This document shows positions 5,643-17,941 of a stretch of DNA of 59,357 bases, piece after piece. Numbering within the stretch: the stretch's first letter is position 1; every line of letters starts with the position of its first letter. The notes under the pieces were generated by a model that made no database searches, was not told where the DNA came from, and was given only the letters and a program-made list of their open reading frames with translations. Source of the stretch: a virus. The stretch lies in the IMG/VR virus record IMGVR_UViG_3300033148_005636, positions 1-59,357 of that record. One strand, 5' to 3'. The translations under genes were made by a program, and so were the position numbers.

Positions 5643-6439
5643 CAGTCGCCTCCTCCTGCCGCCCTCCCCGTCGTCTCCCGCACCATCGCCTCCGGCCAGC
5701 GCTGCATCAGCAGCCGCGTCGTCATTGCTTGCAAGTTGTCCTTCTCAAACAGCGGAACACCGTTTACAGCGGTGGATAGGCCAAGCCGCGTAACCCACCG
5801 GTCATCCGGCAGAACCGCCCCCGGCCCCGTCTGCGCGCCGATTATCACCCACCTGACCTCTCGCGGGATCGACTCGCCGATAGGCCCGAGCAGCGGCTCG
5901 GCGCTGATGATCGGCTCGAACGGATGTCTGTCCCCAACGCTCCCGCAGTCCCACCGCAGCAGCAGTTCATCCACGCGCCACCAGTCTGGCTGAGACGTCA
6001 CGCTGACCCCAAGCCAGAGGTTCAGATCGTCGGAGAAGCGCACAAGCTCCTCCGCGTCGATCAGGTCCGGGCGCTTGGTCAGCACCACGTAGTGATGCCA
6101 CGGCGCCGCGCGCATCGCGTCCCACACCCGCTCGCGCTCCACGGCGGTCAGCTCCGGGTCGAACATCTCGCCCATGCTGCCGCAGAACACGATGCGCGGG
6201 CTCTTCACCTTCGCGGGCTGGTCGAGCCGCTCGGGATGCAGGTGCGGGACGAACTCGTAGCAGAGTTGGCAGCCGTAGGTGGTGCCGTCGGCGCGCACGC
6301 CCGGCTTGAACCGATGCCGCATCCTGTACGCGTAGCACCAGCCCTCTGGCAGCTCCGGCGTCGCCCCACACCTCTCGCTGCATCCCGCCCCCAGCGGGTT
6401 CCACGTGTAGTCACACCACTCGATGCCCGTCCGGTTCAT
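5642..6439 (-). CDS. DUF5131 / phage Gp37-Gp68 family protein (265 aa)
   Basis: ATG at 6439 follows GGAGGAGGT. The start IEWCDYTWNP, clustered cysteines (Cys9, 20, 24, 35) and WCYAYRM match the Gp37/Gp68 family, which looks radical-SAM-like; later FCGSMGEMFDP and VVLTKRP are also family features. The enzymatic activity of this family is not established to my knowledge. In the duplicated module this gene takes the place held by the 8296-9060 gene in the other copy. Confidence 0.8.
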   Translation of the reverse strand: MNRTGIEWCDYTWNPLGAGCSERCGATPELPEGWCYAYRMRHRFKPGVRADGTTYGCQLCYEFVPHLHPERLDQPAKVKSPRIVFCGSMGEMFDPELTAVERERVWDAMRAAPWHHYVVLTKRPDLIDAEELVRFSDDLNLWLGVSVTSQPDWWRVDELLLRWDCGSVGDRHPFEPIISAEPLLGPIGESIPREVRWVIIGAQTGPGAVLPDDRWVTRLGLSTAVNGVPLFEKDNLQAMTTRLLMQRWPEAMVRETTGRAAGGGD

Positions 6440-9490: not shown

Positions 9491-9844
9491 TCACGCGCCA
9501 TCATCTACCGCCTCTTGGTGGGCCTTCCACACATCCCAGCACTCGGCGCAGGTGTACTCCAGCTTGTCGGGCCGGTAGGGGCAGCGGACGCAGTAATCGC
9601 CTTCGAATATTCTGATACCCAGCAACGCCTCCATCGGGCAGGAAGGCAGGTGGTGCGAAGGCACCTGCATGAGCGCGCGCACATAGCGCTCCAGGTGCTC
9701 TTGCATGCGGTCGTACTGACGAACGATTCTGCGTACCGTGTCTGCAAGTGTCTCCTGCGCACAGAACATGCACAGTCCGCTGTCAGCGTTAGAATGCATT
9801 TGCCCACAACGCACACAGGCTTCGCGCGACATCTGCTCATCCAT
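9491..9844 (-). CDS. Double zinc-ribbon protein (117 aa)
   Basis: ATG at 9844, with GGAGG nine bases upstream. Four CxxC pairs (CVRCG, CMFC, CVRC, CAEC) form two zinc ribbons flanking a helical middle. It follows dnaB by 49 bp in which I see nothing. Possibly a replication accessory by position, but this is only context. Confidence 0.6.
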   Translation of the reverse strand: MDEQMSREACVRCGQMHSNADSGLCMFCAQETLADTVRRIVRQYDRMQEHLERYVRALMQVPSHHLPSCPMEALLGIRIFEGDYCVRCPYRPDKLEYTCAECWDVWKAHQEAVDDGA

Positions 9845-9893
9845 ATTGTCATGCCTCCTCGTAAGTTGCACGACGTCAGTTCAGCCGCCCCTC

Positions 9894-11270
9894 TCACCAA
9901 CGCTGATCTACCCCGTCAGATTCGCGCGCCCTGCCCTCCGGCGCATCGGTGATGTGCCCCGTCGCAAGGTCGAACCGCACCGCGTGCACCCCGAACGGCG
10001 GCCTCCGCCGACACGCGTGCAGCCGCAACCGCCCCGACTCCTCCGCCTGCCAATCCTCTCGCCGCCGCTGTGCCCGACGACCCTCAGGCCCCCGCTCAAC
10101 ATCGAACACCAGCGTAGCCGCCTCGTCCCACGCCCGCGCCCACTTCGCGTGCCGCCCCGCCTGACCGTCCGTCAACTGCGATGGCACGATGATAGGGCAC
10201 CGCAGTTCCGCGGCCAGCGCCGCAATCCGATTCGCCTTGTCCTCCGCCGCCTGCACCAGCGTGTCACCCTTGCCCCCCTGGATTAGCTGGGCGTAATCTA
10301 TCAGCACCAGCCCAATCCGCTCGCTGATGCTGATGCGGCGCAGGTCGGTGAGCAGGCGGTCGAGGTCGAAGATGCTACCGCTCACGTAGAGCGGCAACCC
10401 CCGCCACTTCTGCGCCGCCTGCCGGAATCGCTCGCGCTCCTTAGCCGTCACGGGGCTCGCGGGCGAGAACACCGACGCCGAGAACTCGCCCAGCCACGCC
10501 ATCGCCCGCTCCTCCCACACGTCCTGCCCCTCAAGGACGTACGCCACCGCGCACCGGCCATTCTCCCCCTCCTCCGCGAACTCAAGCGCCGAGGACAGGA
10601 TCGCATTCAGCCCCACCATCGACTTGCCCGCCTTCTCGACGCCGCGCACTACCACCAGCCCATGCCCGGCCAGCCCGCCCATCTGCCGGTCGAGGTCCGG
10701 GATGCCCAGCCGCGCCGCGCTCACATGCGGCGGCGCCTCAAGCGCCGTCTCCAGCCGCGCCACCATCTTCTCCGCGTATTCTGCCGCCCGCACCGCCCCC
10801 TGCCCAGCCGTACGGACGCTGCACAACTCCGCGACCGCCCGCGCCGCCTCCGCCAAGACCTCCGCAGGGTCGTCCGGCTTGTCGTACGCCGCCGACTGTA
10901 GCTCAGCGCCCAGTCGCACCAGCGCCCTCAGCACCGCACAGTCGGCCACGATGCTCCCGTAGCGAATCGTGTGCGCGCTCGTCGGCACCTGCGCTATGAG
11001 CGCCGTGAGATACTCGCCGCCTCCACACCGCTCCAACACCTCGCGCCGCCGCAACTCCGCCGCCACCGTCACCGGGTCCACAGCCCCACCGCTGTCCGCC
11101 ACGTGCTCGATGGCGCTGAATATCTCCCGGTGCGCCTCCCGGTAGAAGTCCTCGGCCCGGACGAGCGCCCGCGCCCGCGCCACCGCCTCGGGATCAATCA
11201 GCATCGCCCCGAGTGTCGCCTGTTCGGCCTCAAGGTCCTGCGGGGGCAGGCGGTCGGTGGCGTCAGTCAC
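9894..11270 (-). CDS. dnaB: Replicative DNA helicase, DnaB family (458 aa)
   Basis: GTG at 11270 follows GGGAGGGG and overlaps the upstream stop (GTGA). The N-terminal DnaB domain (LPPQDLEAEQATLGAML) is followed by a RecA-like core with Walker A GVEKAGKS (210-217) and Walker B VLIDYAQL. It is a hexameric 5'-3' helicase that needs loading, probably by the initiator two genes upstream. No primase or polymerase gene is visible, so host enzymes likely join it. Confidence 0.9.
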   Translation of the reverse strand: MTDATDRLPPQDLEAEQATLGAMLIDPEAVARARALVRAEDFYREAHREIFSAIEHVADSGGAVDPVTVAAELRRREVLERCGGGEYLTALIAQVPTSAHTIRYGSIVADCAVLRALVRLGAELQSAAYDKPDDPAEVLAEAARAVAELCSVRTAGQGAVRAAEYAEKMVARLETALEAPPHVSAARLGIPDLDRQMGGLAGHGLVVVRGVEKAGKSMVGLNAILSSALEFAEEGENGRCAVAYVLEGQDVWEERAMAWLGEFSASVFSPASPVTAKERERFRQAAQKWRGLPLYVSGSIFDLDRLLTDLRRISISERIGLVLIDYAQLIQGGKGDTLVQAAEDKANRIAALAAELRCPIIVPSQLTDGQAGRHAKWARAWDEAATLVFDVERGPEGRRAQRRREDWQAEESGRLRLHACRRRPPFGVHAVRFDLATGHITDAPEGRARESDGVDQRW

Positions 11271-11500
11271 GATTGCCCCTCCCGGCTCTCCGCAACGCCC
11301 GCCTGCTGCTCATACCAGAACGGCCTGTCGCGCTTCACTACGTCCACCTGACCATCGGGAGACACGTTCATCTCATACTGCTCCGTATCTGACCCCATAT
11401 AGACCATGACACCACGGCGAGGGTCGCACGCCACACGCTCGATGCGAAATGGCCCCCAACGGAAGCCGTACGTCGTCTCAGCGAGGTCGAAGCCACTCAT
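11267..11500 (-). CDS. Hypothetical protein (77 aa)
   Basis: ATG at 11500 follows GGAGG and overlaps the initiator stop (ATGA); its own stop overlaps dnaB's GTG. Beta-rich, with no recognised family. Lying translationally coupled between initiator and helicase, it might assist helicase loading, but nothing in the sequence proves this. Confidence 0.6.
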   Translation of the reverse strand: MSGFDLAETTYGFRWGPFRIERVACDPRRGVMVYMGSDTEQYEMNVSPDGQVDVVKRDRPFWYEQQAGVAESREGQS

Positions 11501-12612
11501 CCCTGAGCCTCCGGTCTCTCTTCTGGGTGCTCAGCGTAGTACGCCTCCCACCGCGCCTCCCGCTCTGCATCCAGCTTCCGCTGCAATTCCCATGCCCGGT
11601 CAAGGTCCGGGTCCCTGTCATCCTCCGCTTCCTCGCGCTCGCGCTCGATACGTTCGAGCCACTTTGCGGGCAGATGCTTCTCCGTGGCCTTCGGCGGGTA
11701 GCGCTCCAGCAGCGCTACGGCGTCGTCCTCGTCGGTGATGTACCAGTCCGCCTCGCCCTCTATAGCGATGATCAGTTCCACGAGCCAGCGGTCGCAGATA
11801 TGCTGTGACCACGGGAGATCGAAACACGCATTGCGCAGGTTGGGGTAGTTGAGCTTCTTCATGCCCACATCGTCGGGCAGGTCGTCGTAGGGCCGTGCGC
11901 CGTTGCCGTTGCCGTTGGAAGTACTCTCTTGAGACTCTTCGTCGTGTACGTCTGTGTCTGGTCTAGTCTGGTCTAGTCTAGTCTGGTCTAGTCTGTTGCC
12001 GTCGTGTTCGGCACCTGCCGGAACACCTGTAGGAACACCTGTCCCAGCAGGTGTCGAAACAGGTGTTGGAACAGGTGAGGGGAGAGCTGTGGGCTCAGGT
12101 GCAGCGCCGTCCGAGTCACCTGTGCGAGACATGAGGTGCACTACCCGGTCACATGCGGCACTTAGCCCGACACGAAGCCCATACCTGTCGGGCGTGACGT
12201 TCTTCAGGTGGCCGTACTGCTCGGCGAATGCAACCAGATCAGCGGGCGGTTCCCAGTCTGGCGGTGGCGGGTACTCAGGGCCGCTCACGCGCAGCCAGTT
12301 CGGCCTGTCGTGCCGGTGGTAGTCGACGATTTCGAGGAGTTCGTCGCCGTCTACCTCATAGCGCCGGATCAGCCCGCAAGCCTCCATCGCGTCGAGCGCC
12401 CGCGCCGCCTGTGTAGGCGTTATGCGCGCCAGTCCCCCGATGACGTGGGCGAACCTGGCGGGGTCGGCGGTGAACCTGCCGAAGTCGTCGGCGTGGGCCT
12501 TGAGCGGCCAGTATAGGGCGAGGGCCGTTTTCGACTTCCGCCACAGGCAGCACAGGCGCTCAGACAGCATCGCGTCACGGTGCACCTTCGCCCACTGCTT
12601 CGCCATGGCCAC
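11497..12612 (-). CDS. Replisome-organiser-like replication initiator (371 aa)
   Basis: GTG at 12612 (ATG at 12606 is an alternative) follows GAGGAGG. The first 110 residues form a winged helix typical of phage replisome organisers (LYWPLKAHADDFGRF, ARALDAMEACGLIRRY). A low-complexity linker of Pro/Thr/Gly and RLDQT repeats is next, then a charged C-terminal region that could load helicase. The linker DNA holds two sets of short repeats (11956-12122), as in phages whose origin lies inside the initiator gene. It has its own promoter and structured leader and is followed by dnaB. Confidence 0.75.
   Translation of the reverse strand: MAMAKQWAKVHRDAMLSERLCCLWRKSKTALALYWPLKAHADDFGRFTADPARFAHVIGGLARITPTQAARALDAMEACGLIRRYEVDGDELLEIVDYHRHDRPNWLRVSGPEYPPPPDWEPPADLVAFAEQYGHLKNVTPDRYGLRVGLSAACDRVVHLMSRTGDSDGAAPEPTALPSPVPTPVSTPAGTGVPTGVPAGAEHDGNRLDQTRLDQTRPDTDVHDEESQESTSNGNGNGARPYDDLPDDVGMKKLNYPNLRNACFDLPWSQHICDRWLVELIIAIEGEADWYITDEDDAVALLERYPPKATEKHLPAKWLERIEREREEAEDDRDPDLDRAWELQRKLDAEREARWEAYYAEHPEERPEAQG
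11956..12122. other. Candidate replication origin: repeats inside the initiator gene
   Basis: Positions 11956-11995 are eight tandem copies of GTCT(G/A). At 12012-12122 the hexamer CACCTG or its complement CAGGTG occurs eight times: three CACCTG, then four CAGGTG, then one CACCTG. These could be iterons for the initiator encoded by the same DNA. The alternative is that they only reflect a repetitive protein linker. Confidence 0.4.
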
Positions 12613-12614
12613 CG

Positions 12615-12756
12615 GACCTCCTCAGAACAGACAAGCCCCCGCAGGGACCGCGATCCTGTCCAGCCAAGACGAGGAGGCCGCGTTAGTGATCCCTGCGGGG
12701 GCAATCCGGTTGATGTACATGAAACGAACCTCCTTGAAGCGCCCTGGCTGGACAGG
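12615..12756 (-). promoter_or_regulatory. Structured leader with interleaved stems before the initiator gene
   Basis: Two perfect inverted repeats interlock: a 13-bp pair (12635-12647 with 12690-12702) and an 11-bp pair (12655-12665 with 12746-12756). In the transcript they are arranged B'-A'-B-A, which is a pseudoknot topology. A stretch at 12671-12679 can pair over 9 bases with the initiator's GAGGAGGTC ribosome site (12615-12623), so sequestering of that site is plausible. A 32-codon leader frame lies inside. Confidence 0.6.
12622..12720 (-). CDS. Leader peptide of the replication operon (32 aa)
   Basis: ATG at 12720 has a strong AAGGAGG ribosome site. The stop overlaps the initiator's ribosome site (TGAGGAGG), so ribosomes finishing this frame would open it. 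The peptide contains two similar phrases, RIAPAG and RIAVPAG, which come from the inverted-repeat arms. Its translation would cover both A' and B arms, so it may act in cis as an attenuator-like sensor. Confidence 0.55.
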   Translation of the reverse strand: MYINRIAPAGITNAASSSWLDRIAVPAGACLF

Positions 12757-12759
12757 TTC

Positions 12760-12788
12760 ACCATACAACGTCTCGCGCCCTATGTCAA
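12760..12788 (-). promoter_or_regulatory. Promoter of the replication operon
   Basis: On the minus strand TTGACA (12788-12783), 17-bp spacer, TATGGT (12765-12760). The predicted transcript starts near 12753, within the B' arm of the leader. It lies between pentamer array 1 and the leader. Confidence 0.65.
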
Positions 12789-12807: not shown

Positions 12808-12892
12808 GCCGCACCTCGCCTTACCTTGCCATGCCTCACCCTGCCTAGCCATGCCATACCCGGCCTCGCCTAGCCTCGCCGCACCGCGCCTT
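12808..12892. repeat. Degenerate pentamer array 1 (NNGGY, about 17 units)
   Basis: On the minus strand about 17 consecutive 5-bp units follow NNGG(C/T), for example GAGGC TAGGC GAGGC. It starts at the 3' end of the Cas7/RAMP-like gene and ends before the replication promoter. It has no good coding explanation. Confidence 0.85.
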
Positions 12893-13421
12893 ACAAAGCA
12901 CTCCACGCCGTGACGACGAACCGACCCATCGGCCCCTTGCAGTCTGGCCGCCAGTCCAGTACGCCGACGCGCGACCCAGCGTCGTCAATGATCTGGCGCA
13001 ACTGCTTCTCCGTCACGAGCGCCGGGTCGTACTGGATCGTCGCCTCGATGCGCCACTCGTCGAACCGTGGGCGGTGCCGCACCACACGGCCCTTCGTGCT
13101 GGGCACGACGACCGAGCGGCTGTCGATGGTGTACTCCTGCGGGTCGAGGATGAGGTACTCGGGCTCGATGGCGATACAGGCCGCGACGGGCTTCTGGAGG
13201 CTCGCGCGCCCCTTGCCCTTGGAGTAGACGGCAGCGCGAATGAGGGCCTGCCGCAGGGCCTCCGCCGGGATGTACAGCTCGCCGTCCGGGGTGCGATAGG
13301 CGGCGATCTCCGCCTGGTCCTCGGGCGTCCGCTTCTCCAGCGGAGGGTCGATGTCCTCCAACGGAAATCTGTGCATGAGCAGCGGACTGATACCCGTCAG
13401 TTCGATCTTCACGGCGTCCAT
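12891..13421 (-). CDS. Cas7/RAMP-like phage protein, candidate single-strand annealing protein (176 aa)
   Basis: ATG at 13421 follows AAGGAGC at long spacing (GTG at 13430 is possible). The start VKIELTGISPLLMHRF, the mid segment IPAEALRQALIRAA and the end RPDCKGPMGRFVV fit a common phage family that I associate, from fold-level resemblance only, with the Cas7/RAMP ferredoxin-like fold. It sits downstream of a Cas4-like nuclease in the position where other phages pair an exonuclease with an annealing protein, and is bracketed by NNGGY arrays. A role in ssDNA annealing is inference. Confidence 0.5.
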   Translation of the reverse strand: MDAVKIELTGISPLLMHRFPLEDIDPPLEKRTPEDQAEIAAYRTPDGELYIPAEALRQALIRAAVYSKGKGRASLQKPVAACIAIEPEYLILDPQEYTIDSRSVVVPSTKGRVVRHRPRFDEWRIEATIQYDPALVTEKQLRQIIDDAGSRVGVLDWRPDCKGPMGRFVVTAWSAL

Positions 13422-13471
13422 CGTCGTCACGCTCCTTCTGTGGTCTGTCTCCTTGACATGCCTCGCTAACG

Positions 13472-13735
13472 TCACCCTGCCTCGTCTTGCCACACCTTAC
13501 CCAGCCCTACCGTGCCCGGCCTTGCCGGACCCCGCCCTGCCCTGCCTCGCCAGGCCGCGCCCCGCCAGGCCAGGCCTTACCGGGCCGCGCCTCACCCCGA
13601 GAAGACTCGTAAGCGTCCCCTGCCTCGCCCCGCCGCGCCGGGCATTGCCACACCTCGCCCAGCCGTGCCAAGCCTCGCCAGGCCACGCCTCGCCACGCCT
13701 CGCCATGCCATGCCTAACCTCGCCACGCCAAGCCG
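13472..13735. repeat. Degenerate pentamer array 2 (NNGGY, about 46 units in two blocks)
   Basis: On the minus strand about 23 units of NNGG(C/T), a roughly 20-bp interruption around 13596-13618 (ACGCTTACGAGTCTTC), then about 23 more. It directly precedes the Cas7/RAMP-like gene. Long Arg/Gly-rich frames cross it but only read the repeat. Confidence 0.85.
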
Positions 13736-13774
13736 TACATGCACAGCCCCGCGCATACCAGAGCCGCTGTGTGG

Positions 13775-13868
13775 GGGGAGACAGCAATCGGTACGCGCGG
13801 GGCAATCCGCGTGTCGGGTTCGGGCCAGTTGTCCGCGGCTCATGACTCTTCATCGATGCTGTCTCCCC
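13775..13868 (-). promoter_or_regulatory. Leader with 12-bp inverted repeat upstream of array 2
   Basis: GGGGAGACAGCA at 13775-13786 and its exact complement at 13857-13868 are 70 bp apart. The second arm lies just after the predicted transcript start (about 13872). A long-range hairpin at the 5' end of the transcript resembles the layout of the replication-operon leader. The stretch from 13422 to 13903 holds only this leader, array 2 and a promoter. Confidence 0.5.
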
Positions 13869-13878
13869 AGACATCTTC

Positions 13879-13907
13879 ATCCTACCACATCCGCGCGGCC
13901 CCGTCAA
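13879..13907 (-). promoter_or_regulatory. Promoter for the Cas7/RAMP-like gene
   Basis: Minus strand TTGACG (13907-13902), 17-bp spacer, TAGGAT (13884-13879). The -35 overlaps the stop codon of the upstream secreted-protein gene. The transcript would run through the inverted-repeat leader and array 2 into the Cas7/RAMP-like gene. Confidence 0.6.
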
Positions 13908-14452
13908 GCCCCGATGACCCAGACCTGCCGCACACCCGCGTTGTCGTCGCCCCACAAGGTGCCGCGCCGGGGTTCCCAGAAGTCCAGCCACAGGTCGGCG
14001 CCCTTGCGACGGGCGACGCGGTCGTTGCGGCGCGCGCCGGTATCAAGCACCTGCCGGATGCCGGTTCGCGGGTGCCAGACCCACGTGTATGCGGGCAGCA
14101 GGTTGGCCGCCACGCACCGCTCGTCCACACCGTGGCCGTAGCGCGTCCCCTGCCCGCGCGGGAAGCCCTCCTCCGGGAAGTAGGTGGTGAGCCACGCGCG
14201 AAGCCGTCGCACGTCGCCCTCCAGCGCCCGTTCGTATCCCTCGCGTTGCCAGTCCTCAAGTTCTCCGAAGCAGCCCGATAATGCCTTGGTCGCGCAGCGT
14301 TGCAGCGGTTCGTCGGGCAGGTCCGCCACAGCCTCGACGGCGCTGTCCGGTTCAGCACTCTCCACCACTCGCGGCCCCCACGCCACGGCGCACGAGACAC
14401 CCAGCAGCGTCGCCATCAGCCCGCACGTCACCGCTGTGCGTGGTGTCCTCAC
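13904..14452 (-). CDS. Secreted protein with 3D/double-psi barrel-like domain (182 aa)
   Basis: GTG at 14452 follows GGAGGAGG and overlaps the Cas4-like stop (GTGA). The N-terminus is a signal peptide (MRTPRTAVTCGLMATLLGV, then CAVAWG; the Cys could make it a lipoprotein). The C-terminal half (VDERCVAANLLPAYTWVWHP ... RQVLDTGARR ... ADLWLDFW) resembles the 3D domain of MltA-like lytic transglycosylases with its Asp residues. It could trim or bind peptidoglycan. Its place among recombination genes is odd. Confidence 0.55.
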   Translation of the reverse strand: MRTPRTAVTCGLMATLLGVSCAVAWGPRVVESAEPDSAVEAVADLPDEPLQRCATKALSGCFGELEDWQREGYERALEGDVRRLRAWLTTYFPEEGFPRGQGTRYGHGVDERCVAANLLPAYTWVWHPRTGIRQVLDTGARRNDRVARRKGADLWLDFWEPRRGTLWGDDNAGVRQVWVIGA

Positions 14453-15651
14453 TGCACATCCTCCTCCTCGCAGCCATCGATGCGGAACCGCTCCGCCCCG
14501 TTCCACTTCCGCGGCTCCATCAGCCCCCGCAGGGCCTCAGCGGCGGTGTCGGCCTCGCCATGCCCGAATGGGTCTTCGTCGCGCTCGACAAGGGCCAGCA
14601 GGCGACCGAGGGCCTTCGGGTCCGGGTCGGGGAACAGGACCTCCGTCACCTCGTCCTCGTCAAGGCCCGCGTCCGTCAACACCTCCGCCGCCCGCTGCCG
14701 CTCCACGCTGCGCTTGAGCACGTACTCGCCGTCATAGACGGCTGCCCCGTCACGCTCGACGACGTGGGCCGGCCGCCCGCGATAGGCCACCTTGCCCGCG
14801 GCGCTCACCGGGCCGTGCTCGCGGACCCATGCACTCACCGCATTGCGCAGGCGCTTGAGGTCGGCTTCGTGGGCGACGATGCGGCGCAGGGCGTCCTCAG
14901 CGTCCGCGGTGCAGGTGATCGCCACGCCGGTGCCAGCCGCGTACGGGCACACGTGCGTGTAGTCGCACCATGCACACGCGTGAGGTGAGGGCGTCGCCTC
15001 GAACCGCTTGTTGGCGGCGATGCGTCGCGCAATAGCCACCGCCCAGTCCGGCCGCAGTTCGTCGGGGGCCATCCACCACTCGTGCGTGACCCCGTTGCCG
15101 ATGTAGTGCGCGCGCAGCATCACCTCGGATGCGCCGCTGAACTGCGGCATTCGCAGGAGCGCCCAGCCGTACATCATCAGTTGGGCAGGCGGCTCGTCGG
15201 GGCGGTCCTGCGCCCAACTGGACTTGTAGTCCGTCACGAACAGCCGCCCGTCCGCGGTCGCGTACTCCACCAGGTCCACGCGCCCCTTGAACTTGCCGAG
15301 GCCCTCGGGCAGGTCGGCGGCGACTTCGCGTTCCACGCCCTCGCCGTCCGCCACCACCAGCTCGCGATTGAACTCAACCTGCCGGGCGAATGCGCGGCAG
15401 AGTCTCTCAACTCCGAGCCCGTCGGGGCGGTAGCCGACGGCCTGCTCGTCCGCCCACTCCCAATCGCGCGGCAGGCCCGCCTCAATGCAGTGGCGGCCGT
15501 ACATCTCGGCGAACTCGTGCACGAGCCGCCCGCGGATGCAGGCTTCGCTCTCCTGCCTCTGCTCGCGGTCCACGTAGGCGAAGCGCCATGCCAGCGGGCA
15601 GCGCGCGTAGAGCGACAGGCTGCTGTAGCTCACGTGCGTCGGTTCGGTCAT
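14449..15651 (-). CDS. Cas4/RecB-like PD-(D/E)XK nuclease with Fe-S cysteines (400 aa)
   Basis: ATG at 15651 follows AAGGAGAG. Motifs in order: YSSLSLYARCPLAWRF with Cys18, GRLVHEFAE (His45), GRVDLV (Asp126), VTDYKSS (Asp141, Lys143), QLMMYGW (Gln157), and CAWCDYTHVC (Cys226, 229, 235). One upstream and three downstream Cys are the Cas4/AddB Fe-S arrangement. Likely a 5'-exonuclease that makes ssDNA for recombination. The C-terminal 160 residues are extra compared with Cas4. Confidence 0.85.
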   Translation of the reverse strand: MTEPTHVSYSSLSLYARCPLAWRFAYVDREQRQESEACIRGRLVHEFAEMYGRHCIEAGLPRDWEWADEQAVGYRPDGLGVERLCRAFARQVEFNRELVVADGEGVEREVAADLPEGLGKFKGRVDLVEYATADGRLFVTDYKSSWAQDRPDEPPAQLMMYGWALLRMPQFSGASEVMLRAHYIGNGVTHEWWMAPDELRPDWAVAIARRIAANKRFEATPSPHACAWCDYTHVCPYAAGTGVAITCTADAEDALRRIVAHEADLKRLRNAVSAWVREHGPVSAAGKVAYRGRPAHVVERDGAAVYDGEYVLKRSVERQRAAEVLTDAGLDEDEVTEVLFPDPDPKALGRLLALVERDEDPFGHGEADTAAEALRGLMEPRKWNGAERFRIDGCEEEDVQ

Positions 15652-15670: not shown

Positions 15671-15811
15671 TTAGCGCCACAGTCTCTGCACTCCCCGCCC
15701 GATGTAGCGGTTGGCTATTCGGGCGGCTGTCCGGCCCGGCCCGCGCGATAGGGCATTCAGCCAACCCAGCAGGCGGGCGAACGCGTAGAGCAGTCTGCGC
15801 AGTCTGTTCAT
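15671..15811 (-). CDS. Small basic amphipathic protein (46 aa)
   Basis: ATG at 15811 overlaps the methyltransferase stop (ATGA) and follows GAGGAGGAG. Arg-rich with a hydrophobic stretch (LLYAFARLLGWLNAL), so a membrane-associated or nucleic-acid binding peptide. No family recognised. Confidence 0.6.
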   Translation of the reverse strand: MNRLRRLLYAFARLLGWLNALSRGPGRTAARIANRYIGRGVQRLWR

Positions 15812-16614
15812 CCTTTCTCCTCCTCGCGTGCGAGCCGATGCGCCTCGGTATCCTGTGCGTTCGGCGGCGCCTCGTCCGCCTGAAACATGGGCTGCTGCTT
15901 CGGCGCTACAATCTCGGCGGGCTCCCATAGCCGCCCCTGCGCTATCTCCTGCTCCAACCGCCGCGCCGCGAGTTCGCAGTACTCCTCGCTGATCTCGATG
16001 CCGACGCCCCGCCGCCCGAGGCGATAAGCGGCCACGAGCGTGGTGCCGGAACCGAGGAAGGGGTCGAACACTTGACCATCGGGTTGACAAGACAGCTCAC
16101 ACAGTTCTGACATGAGACCGATTGGCTTCTGTGTCGGATGATAACGCTCATTCGATGGCACAACGGGCCATTCGCTGAAGTTATGGCGGCAGTGTCCGCC
16201 ATAGTACGCCCCTGCCCGCTTACCCCATACTGCGAGCTCTACTGACGGTAATGGTAACAATTCCCCATTCATTACCGTGGGATTGGGCTTATGCCATATC
16301 CAGTACCGCGTCGAATAGCCCTGATCTTCGAGACCGTTCACGAGGGGAGAAAGCTGTGTCTCGTGACAGAAACTTACGACGGTTCCCGCAACGCACCGTG
16401 CGCACTCCAGTAGGACTGTAGTTGGGTCCCCACAAGTGTCCCACTCGCCATAGTGCAACCGCCGAAGTCCGTTATCCCGTTGGCTGAGGAGATAGGGAAT
16501 GTCCGTCAGGCACAGGTCGAACTCCTCGCCCAGCGCGGGCATTACCTCCAAGCAGTCCCCGTGGTAGATGCGCAGGCCGTGCGTTTCCGACACCCAGTAG
16601 GGCCTAATCGCCAT
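15808..16614 (-). CDS. DNA methyltransferase, beta-class amino type (268 aa)
   Basis: ATG at 16614 follows GAAGGAGG and overlaps the RDF-like gene by 11 bp. Motif IV DIPY (38-41) comes before motif I FDPFLGSGTT (183-192), with HPTQKP between, the beta-class order. DIPY in place of DPPY is an accepted variant. It methylates adenine N6 or cytosine N4 in a short DNA site, probably to avoid restriction. Second methyltransferase of the genome. Confidence 0.85.
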   Translation of the reverse strand: MAIRPYWVSETHGLRIYHGDCLEVMPALGEEFDLCLTDIPYLLSQRDNGLRRLHYGEWDTCGDPTTVLLECARCVAGTVVSFCHETQLSPLVNGLEDQGYSTRYWIWHKPNPTVMNGELLPLPSVELAVWGKRAGAYYGGHCRHNFSEWPVVPSNERYHPTQKPIGLMSELCELSCQPDGQVFDPFLGSGTTLVAAYRLGRRGVGIEISEEYCELAARRLEQEIAQGRLWEPAEIVAPKQQPMFQADEAPPNAQDTEAHRLAREEEKG

Positions 16615-17941
16615 CCCCCACGCCCTCCTTCGGGATGAGCCGCCGCGCCTTCGTCTCGGGCGCGTTCGGGAATGGGTCGTCCTCCTCGTCCCACTCCACG
16701 GGCGGCTCGGCATCCGGCGGCGTCTCGTCCTGCGGCCCGTCGTCCGCCTCCGGCTCCTCGCTGAACTCCGCGTCGGTGGCCTCCCCGTCGCCCTCCAGCG
16801 AGGCAATCTGTCGCACCAGGTCCTCCGGGTCGGCCTCCGCGACGAAGCTGTCAATCGCGGCGTCAGTCCAGCCCGCTTCCGTCGCGACCGCCCGGAACCG
16901 CTCCTCCATGAAGTCGCCAATGCTGGGCTCGCCGCCCGCGGCCAGATCGTGTTCGCCGACGAATGCGTCCGTGTACTCCGCCTCGGTCTCCTCGATTACG
17001 CCATCCAGCATCTTGAGGTGCGACGCCAGTTCGCGTTGCGCCTCCACGCTCTCCCTCAACGCCCGCGCCTTCGCCTCGCCGAGCGCCGGGAGTTCACGCC
17101 ACGGCACCGCAGGCTCAAAGTGCACGACGCCGAGATGCTGCATCCCCATCGGCGTCCTCAGCCTCGGGAACTCCAGCACGAGCTTGAGGGGCAGCCCCGC
17201 GATGACGCCCCCGGCCATGTCGCGGATTTCCTCCCACGACCGCATCAGCCCTGCTGAACTGTACCAGCTCGGCGTGCTGAAGAATGCCCGCGGCGACTCG
17301 TCCTCCACGAACGGGAGCAGCAGCGGCACGACACAGTGGATGCCGCACAGCTTCCGCCCCTCCTCCACGACCTTCTCGCTGGGCCACGCGCCGTAGGCGT
17401 CGCGGTACTCCACGCGCCCCGCGTGGTCCCAGCGCCCTTGAGCGAACGCGCAGGTATGGGGGTCGCACGGGACCTGAACCTTCTCCAGCGGCACGGGATA
17501 GTGGTGCGGTGGCGGCCCCTGTCGCCACCGCGTCCGCGTCGCGGTGCCGACGAAGTATGCTGGGCCAGCGTTCTCCCAGCCGCCCGCCGGCGGGTAGGGA
17601 AGCCCCTGCTGCTCGCAGGTCTCGGGGCTCTTCTGCATCCACCTCCCACAGCGGCACACGTTGCGGTTGTTCGAGCCCCACGCCGCCAGTTCCGTGAAGA
17701 CCGCTCGCTCCAGTTCCTGATACGGGCTGATGACCGGGCACCACTGCGGCTTGTCCGTCCCCGTGATTTCGCACAGCCGGGCCTGGAGGTCCGGGTGCAC
17801 GACCCAGACTTCCTTGGCCCGGTCGTAATAGCGAATCGTGATGTAATCCATAGCCCGCGGCGGGCCGGTCTTCGACTTCCGCTCTCCGATGCTGACCTTC
17901 CACGTCGGCAGCACCGGCCCTCTGCGTCCAGGCAGGGCCAT
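16604..17941 (-). CDS. Recombination-directionality-factor-like (Gp3-like) phage protein (445 aa)
   Basis: ATG at 17941 follows GAGGG. The N-terminus (TWKVSIGERKSKTGPPRAMD, then DKPQWCPVISPYQELE), a Cys-rich middle (CRCGRWMQKSPETCEQQ, CDPHTCAF) and FSTPSWYSS ... GVIAGLPLKLVL match the Gp3-like family. The C-terminal 150 residues are acidic and low-complexity. Family members near serine integrases can act as directionality factors, but no integrase is present here, so a replication/recombination role is more likely. Confidence 0.6.
   Translation of the reverse strand: MALPGRRGPVLPTWKVSIGERKSKTGPPRAMDYITIRYYDRAKEVWVVHPDLQARLCEITGTDKPQWCPVISPYQELERAVFTELAAWGSNNRNVCRCGRWMQKSPETCEQQGLPYPPAGGWENAGPAYFVGTATRTRWRQGPPPHHYPVPLEKVQVPCDPHTCAFAQGRWDHAGRVEYRDAYGAWPSEKVVEEGRKLCGIHCVVPLLLPFVEDESPRAFFSTPSWYSSAGLMRSWEEIRDMAGGVIAGLPLKLVLEFPRLRTPMGMQHLGVVHFEPAVPWRELPALGEAKARALRESVEAQRELASHLKMLDGVIEETEAEYTDAFVGEHDLAAGGEPSIGDFMEERFRAVATEAGWTDAAIDSFVAEADPEDLVRQIASLEGDGEATDAEFSEEPEADDGPQDETPPDAEPPVEWDEEDDPFPNAPETKARRLIPKEGVGDGD

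Follow-up and report, generated by a model that had tools for sequence, protein, structure and literature searches.

We identified a VIPR system in the virus record IMGVR_UViG_3300033148_005636, all 59,357 bases of which were analysed (hereafter the window), and we put the probability of this assignment at about 0.93. In VIPR (Viral Interference Programmable Repeat), a phage-encoded RAMP protein called Vipr is accompanied by vrRNAs in which GGY alternates with NN and which flank the vipr gene (PMC13142463; bioRxiv 2026.04.26.720920). The region at 12808-13907, which holds a Cas7-like gene and arrays of a five-base unit (Table 1), is a new and divergent member of this recently described kind, and its gene and arrays do not form an exonuclease-annealase recombination pair. 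The assignment is based on a match to the Vipr-family profile, on GGY/NN tracts that flank the gene, and on the association of such arrays with the gene across viral loci. All features of the locus that can be seen in sequence fit VIPR as described in PMC13142463.

Table 1. Features of the VIPR locus and its surroundings in the window
Feature	Coordinates	Strand	Evidence or detail
PDDEXK/AddB-Cas4-like exonuclease	14449-15651	minus	PDDEXK_1, phrog_69
Sigma70-like promoter TTGACG-17-TAGGAT, directed towards tracts 1 and 2 and vipr	13879-13907	minus	motif scan
Leader separating the promoter from tract 1; its two stems interleave (A-B-A'-B', pseudoknot-like)	13746-13873	minus	repeat search
GGY/NN tract 1, putative upstream vrRNA	13622-13734	minus	22/23 units
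GGY/NN tract 2, putative upstream vrRNA	13474-13596	minus	24/25 units
vipr, Cas7/RAMP-fold putative guide-RNA-binding protein, phrog_4652	12891-13421	minus	176 aa; profile and predicted fold
Protospacer within vipr (its start), identical to spacer 3 of the L001 mini-CRISPR array	13375-13406	minus	32/32 identical; 5' flank GTGAAG
GGY/NN tract 3, putative downstream vrRNA, beginning at the vipr stop codon	12808-12890	minus	17/17 units
Sigma70-like promoter TTGACA-17-TATGGT, belonging to the following operon (replication initiator)	12760-12788	minus	motif scan

The vipr gene carries an AAGGAG upstream of its ATG. Its product belongs to a PHROGs family of unknown function (E = 2.7e-22) and has no match in Pfam. 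Searching PDB sequences with a family profile built from this protein and 70 viral homologues gave one decisive match, 36pp_D, the ‘SUSP1 Vipr protein’ (E = 6.7e-39, 178 of 182 positions), which the window protein alone also matched in a single-sequence search (E = 1.2e-9). By tblastn, 99% of the protein was covered by an alignment to the SUSP1 phage (E = 7e-9), and relatives were found in 159 phage records, including Felixounaviruses, SUSP1, mycobacteriophages, Gordonia phages and Pseudomonas LESphi2.

The AlphaFold2 model of the protein (71 sequences; pLDDT 96.4, pTM 0.90) is closest among solved structures to Cas7 of type VII and Csm3 of type III systems. Type VII Cas7 was the best Foldseek match (E = 2e-7), VIA aligned 159 residues with Csm3 6ifk_E (Z = 12.8, rmsd 3.9), and the top 50 fold matches from Foldseek and VIA were all CRISPR RAMP subunits. 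The suggestion, made initially from the sequence, that this is a phage family with a Cas7/RAMP fold is thus confirmed by both the prediction and the fold search. Of the proposed comparison with Cas7, Rad52 and RecT, the first part returned the Cas7/RAMP fold, and profile searches gave no RecT, ERF or Rad52 match; the lack of a Rad52 or RecT fold among the structure matches proves nothing by itself. The protein resembles the RAMP subunits Csm3 and Cas7 of type III and type VII CRISPR-Cas effectors in fold (VIA Z as high as 12.8, with 157-161 residues aligned), at an identity of 9-18%. Unlike those systems, the window has no CRISPR array, and its putative RNA is built of pentamer units where they have a crRNA. 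The absence of a CRISPR array or other cas gene, already remarked on in the preliminary description, held up, as the window has no Cas7e profile match and does not contain the CRISPR repeat of the related phage described below.

Exactly three tracts with GGY at a period of five occur in the 59 kb, all of them beside vipr and only on the vipr strand, in agreement with the original observation that repeat arrays bracket this single gene. GGY is intact in 63 of the 65 units. The longest observed run is 24 units, and 200 first-order Markov genomes matched to the window in composition gave no run longer than 7. The sequence of the tracts differs between close relatives while GGY is kept. For example, tract 3 and the downstream tract of a sister phage, L001 (contig IMGVR_UViG_3300010330_000010; 87-97% identity to the window in long alignable blocks), have an 8-unit NN block in common and differ elsewhere. 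From their sequence, and by analogy with described VIPR loci, the three tracts probably encode guide RNAs (putative vrRNAs). A similar short sequence (GACGYTWRCGAG) follows both tract 1 and tract 2 and is possibly a 3' tail.

Arrays of this kind might alternatively be DNA sites, either iterons or a partition site, bound by Vipr or by a repressor. Their intergenic position next to the replication initiator operon and the presence of a ParB-like gene in the window would be compatible with such a role. However, the NN positions are hypervariable, the array orientation is always that of vipr, and arrays sit between a promoter and vipr; moreover, the same arrays in SUSP1 are shown to be RNAs that copurify with Vipr (PMC13142463). 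Given the NN variability and the fixed orientation in particular, we regard the iteron or partition reading as very improbable.

The association of arrays with vipr extends well beyond the window. Sense-strand GGY/NN arrays adjoin the vipr homologue in nine of nine divergent relatives examined, with GGT in place of GGC in an AT-rich coliphage. Scanning viral contigs with the pattern (GGYNN)x10 only, we recovered 120 loci, 86 of which encode a Vipr homologue recognized by a ten-sequence HMM; the remainder includes simple repeats and sequences that break off close to the array.

Among the collected loci, two have very long GGY/NN tracts beside a vipr homologue, far above the 9-16 repeats described per vrRNA: L105 (1188-1460, 52/55 units) and L129 (1244-1461, 34/44 units). 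In three others, from Gordonia and Mycobacterium phages (L004, L007 and L010), tRNA-like minihelices lie between GGY/NN tracts upstream or downstream of vipr. Each minihelix consists of a T-arm, whose loop is UUCGANUC, and an acceptor stem stacked on it, and lacks a D or anticodon arm. We speculate that these elements could direct RNase P/Z to processing sites in vrRNA arrays.

Compared with VIPR of SUSP1, an Escherichia phage (PDB 36pp), the window encodes a Vipr that is homologous over its full length, and in both phages a phage-encoded system of few genes has GGY/NN tracts on either side of vipr, on the strand of that gene. The two proteins nevertheless share only 25% identity, and the locus differs from that of SUSP1 in several other respects. 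In VIPR systems the vrRNA is about 100 nt long, has 9-16 repeats and copurifies with Vipr, according to PMC13142463. The window tracts, at 17-25 units on the DNA, exceed this range, which counts against the VIPR assignment. No vap1, which is phrog_5926 in SUSP1, was detected adjoining the window vipr, a second point against the assignment, and phrog_5926 had no match elsewhere in the window; control genomes were also without a match in the same search. An accessory vap gene beside vipr is typical of VIPR, not universal. Finally, the window lacks an obvious pseudoknot tail and instead has pseudoknot-like leaders after two promoters.

These differences would also fit a degenerate VIPR locus, in which the protein is still made and the long, tail-poor tracts no longer function as guides. 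Tract lengths outside 9-16 repeats, the lack of a clear structured tail, the missing vap1 match and the absence of a target in viral contigs all point in this direction. Decay is at odds with the retention of GGY in nearly all units and with an intact vipr whose product is 95% identical to that of L001. Long tracts are also present in L105 and L129, and staggered long arrays are reported for VIPR in PMC13142463. We therefore consider a decaying system unlikely and favour an intact VIPR locus.

The search for targets covered viral contigs under a rule of one skipped nucleotide per unit, with NN seeds of 7 to 11 units from the three window tracts, and gave none beyond chance-level extension, a result that also counts against the VIPR assignment. 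Candidates L131-L137 and the 7-unit seed hits were rejected, as their flanking units agree at chance level only, and neither the collected viral loci nor the window itself contained better tract matches. The skip rule sought within the collected loci gave no signal; these comprise too little sequence, and the column for a 3-nt skip reflects arrays matching themselves.

Two sigma70-like sites were found where 0.1 would be expected in shuffled sequence. The first reads into the upstream tracts and vipr, and the second delimits the VIPR locus on its 3' side. The leader that follows the first promoter resembles another at 12635-12759 (minus strand), which follows the second promoter, downstream of the third tract. 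Both leaders lie just past a sigma70-like promoter and have two long interleaved stems and a common CGGATTGCCCC; one leader stem pair changes from G-C to A-T in L001. The leader elements had no match in Rfam, and the Rfam scan of the window returned tRNA only.

We propose that transcription from the promoter at 13907-13879 would pass through the structured leader, the two upstream guide tracts, vipr and the third tract in one read-through. If the locus works as its SUSP1 homologue does, copies of the small RAMP protein would assemble into a multimer on each vrRNA, with the thumb of each subunit covering a GGY triplet and leaving the variable NN dinucleotide exposed. The resulting ribonucleoprotein may then recognize (NNx)n in double-stranded DNA, bind there and keep a rival phage, prophage or satellite from being transcribed. 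In PMC13142463, the NN dinucleotides of vrRNA read double-stranded DNA with one base skipped per unit, a gapped pairing written (NNx)n, and the complex silences mobile DNA that competes with the phage, repressing rival phages and prophages. For the window locus, the binding of RNA, the gapped mode of pairing, the silencing and a role in conflict between phages are predicted by analogy with that work.

In the order of minus-strand transcription, the neighbourhood comprises a Gp3-like gene (16604-17941), a DNA methyltransferase (a methylase domain inside ORF 15808-16920), the PDDEXK exonuclease, a small ORF (13904-14506), two arrays, vipr, the third array, a replication initiator (11497-12612) and a DnaB helicase (9894-11270). 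The small ORF overlaps the end of the exonuclease gene and encodes a secreted-looking protein with a 3D-domain-like motif recognized by eye. Elsewhere in the window, a ParB-like gene lies at 794-1654.

The exonuclease was initially described as a Cas4-like nuclease. All of the residues cited for this (C18, H45, D126, D141-Y-K143, Q157 and C226/C229/C235) are present, so the full nuclease and cysteine set stands. The Pfam Cas_Cas4 score is below the cut-off (17.5 bits vs 22.7), and the protein is instead assigned to PDDEXK_1 (E = 3.4e-28, 99.7 bits) and to the phrog_69 exonucleases (E = 2.5e-29). On present evidence the gene lies outside the VIPR locus.

The preliminary description had further proposed a role for the Cas7-like protein in phage recombination, as a single-strand annealing partner of this exonuclease. 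Like RecE/RecT and lambda Exo/Beta pairs, the window has a PDDEXK exonuclease near the gene, two genes upstream. It was also correctly noted that no annealase is visible in the window: the RecT, ERF and Rad52 profiles (PF03837, PF04404 and PF04098) had no match in the record, and PHROGs scans of about 47 window ORFs found none. However, the absence of a known annealase does not imply that Vipr fills that role. Unlike the second member of those pairs, the protein falls in the Vipr family and matches none of the RecT, ERF and Rad52 profiles, and each of its 50 best fold matches is a RAMP subunit from a CRISPR system. The idea that the family stands in where a recognizable annealase is lacking fails in other phages, as the Gordonia phages Pipp and UmaThurman carry, besides a vipr homologue, RecE/RecT-type exonuclease-annealase pairs elsewhere in the genome, and viral locus L115 has both a vipr homologue and RecT. 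The expected co-occurrence with the nuclease was likewise not seen, with a homologue beside vipr in 0 of 86 loci, in a single-sequence search of limited flanks that is insensitive. An annealase would moreover leave the arrays unexplained, and it is not supported because the described partner of the family is GGY/NN RNA from the flanking arrays (PMC13142463). On Vipr membership and coexistence with RecT we reject this proposal, which we consider extremely improbable.

A further point against the annealase proposal comes from LittleE, in which the vipr homologue and a partner form a lone antisense two-gene cassette among tail genes. The Gp3-like protein in the exonuclease operon region of the window (minus strand, 445 aa, PF18897) resembles the recombination directionality factor of phiC31, and its gene is a better place than vipr to seek the partner of the exonuclease.

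In L001, the leader and tracts 1 and 2 of the window (about 13430-13859) are replaced by a TnpB-family gene and a mini-CRISPR array. The array (9761-9972) lies beside the TnpB gene and has four 29-nt repeats, which are type I-E-like, and three 32-nt spacers. The third spacer is identical to the start of the window vipr, where the protospacer is flanked by AAG, the classical type I-E motif. The L001 vipr itself has one mismatch to this spacer, at spacer position 1, which is a seed position. No match to the Cas7e profile was obtained in either the window or the L001 record, and host CRISPR machinery would therefore be needed; a host sought by CRISPR repeat and terminase in sequenced genomes gave no match. 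Related phages may thus fight over VIPR with CRISPR, L001 borrowing host machinery to cut rivals that carry the VIPR weapon. We hold the chances of this to be even, the case being drawn from a single metagenomic contig. We know of no earlier description of a spacer against vipr that is sited in the place of the vrRNAs. Virus-borne mini-CRISPR arrays are known from interviral conflict (PMC6858448), and the three-spacer array of L001, with one spacer matching a related virus, is of this type; it differs in that the spacer matches the vipr of the rival and the array occupies the site of the vrRNA tracts. Elsewhere, L001 encodes a HEARO RNA (6176-6386; Rfam RF02033, E = 1.1e-18), for which the window has no match above the gathering threshold.

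VIPR, a system described only recently, recognizes DNA with the help of guide RNA and has been proposed to be older than CRISPR; the window adds an independent, divergent VIPR locus with unusually long guide tracts. As the (GGYNN)x10 scan finds dozens more loci from DNA alone, the family can be mapped without a protein search. If our reading of L001 is true, its spacer would be a direct case of CRISPR aimed at vipr, and would connect two RNA-guided systems through conflict between viruses.
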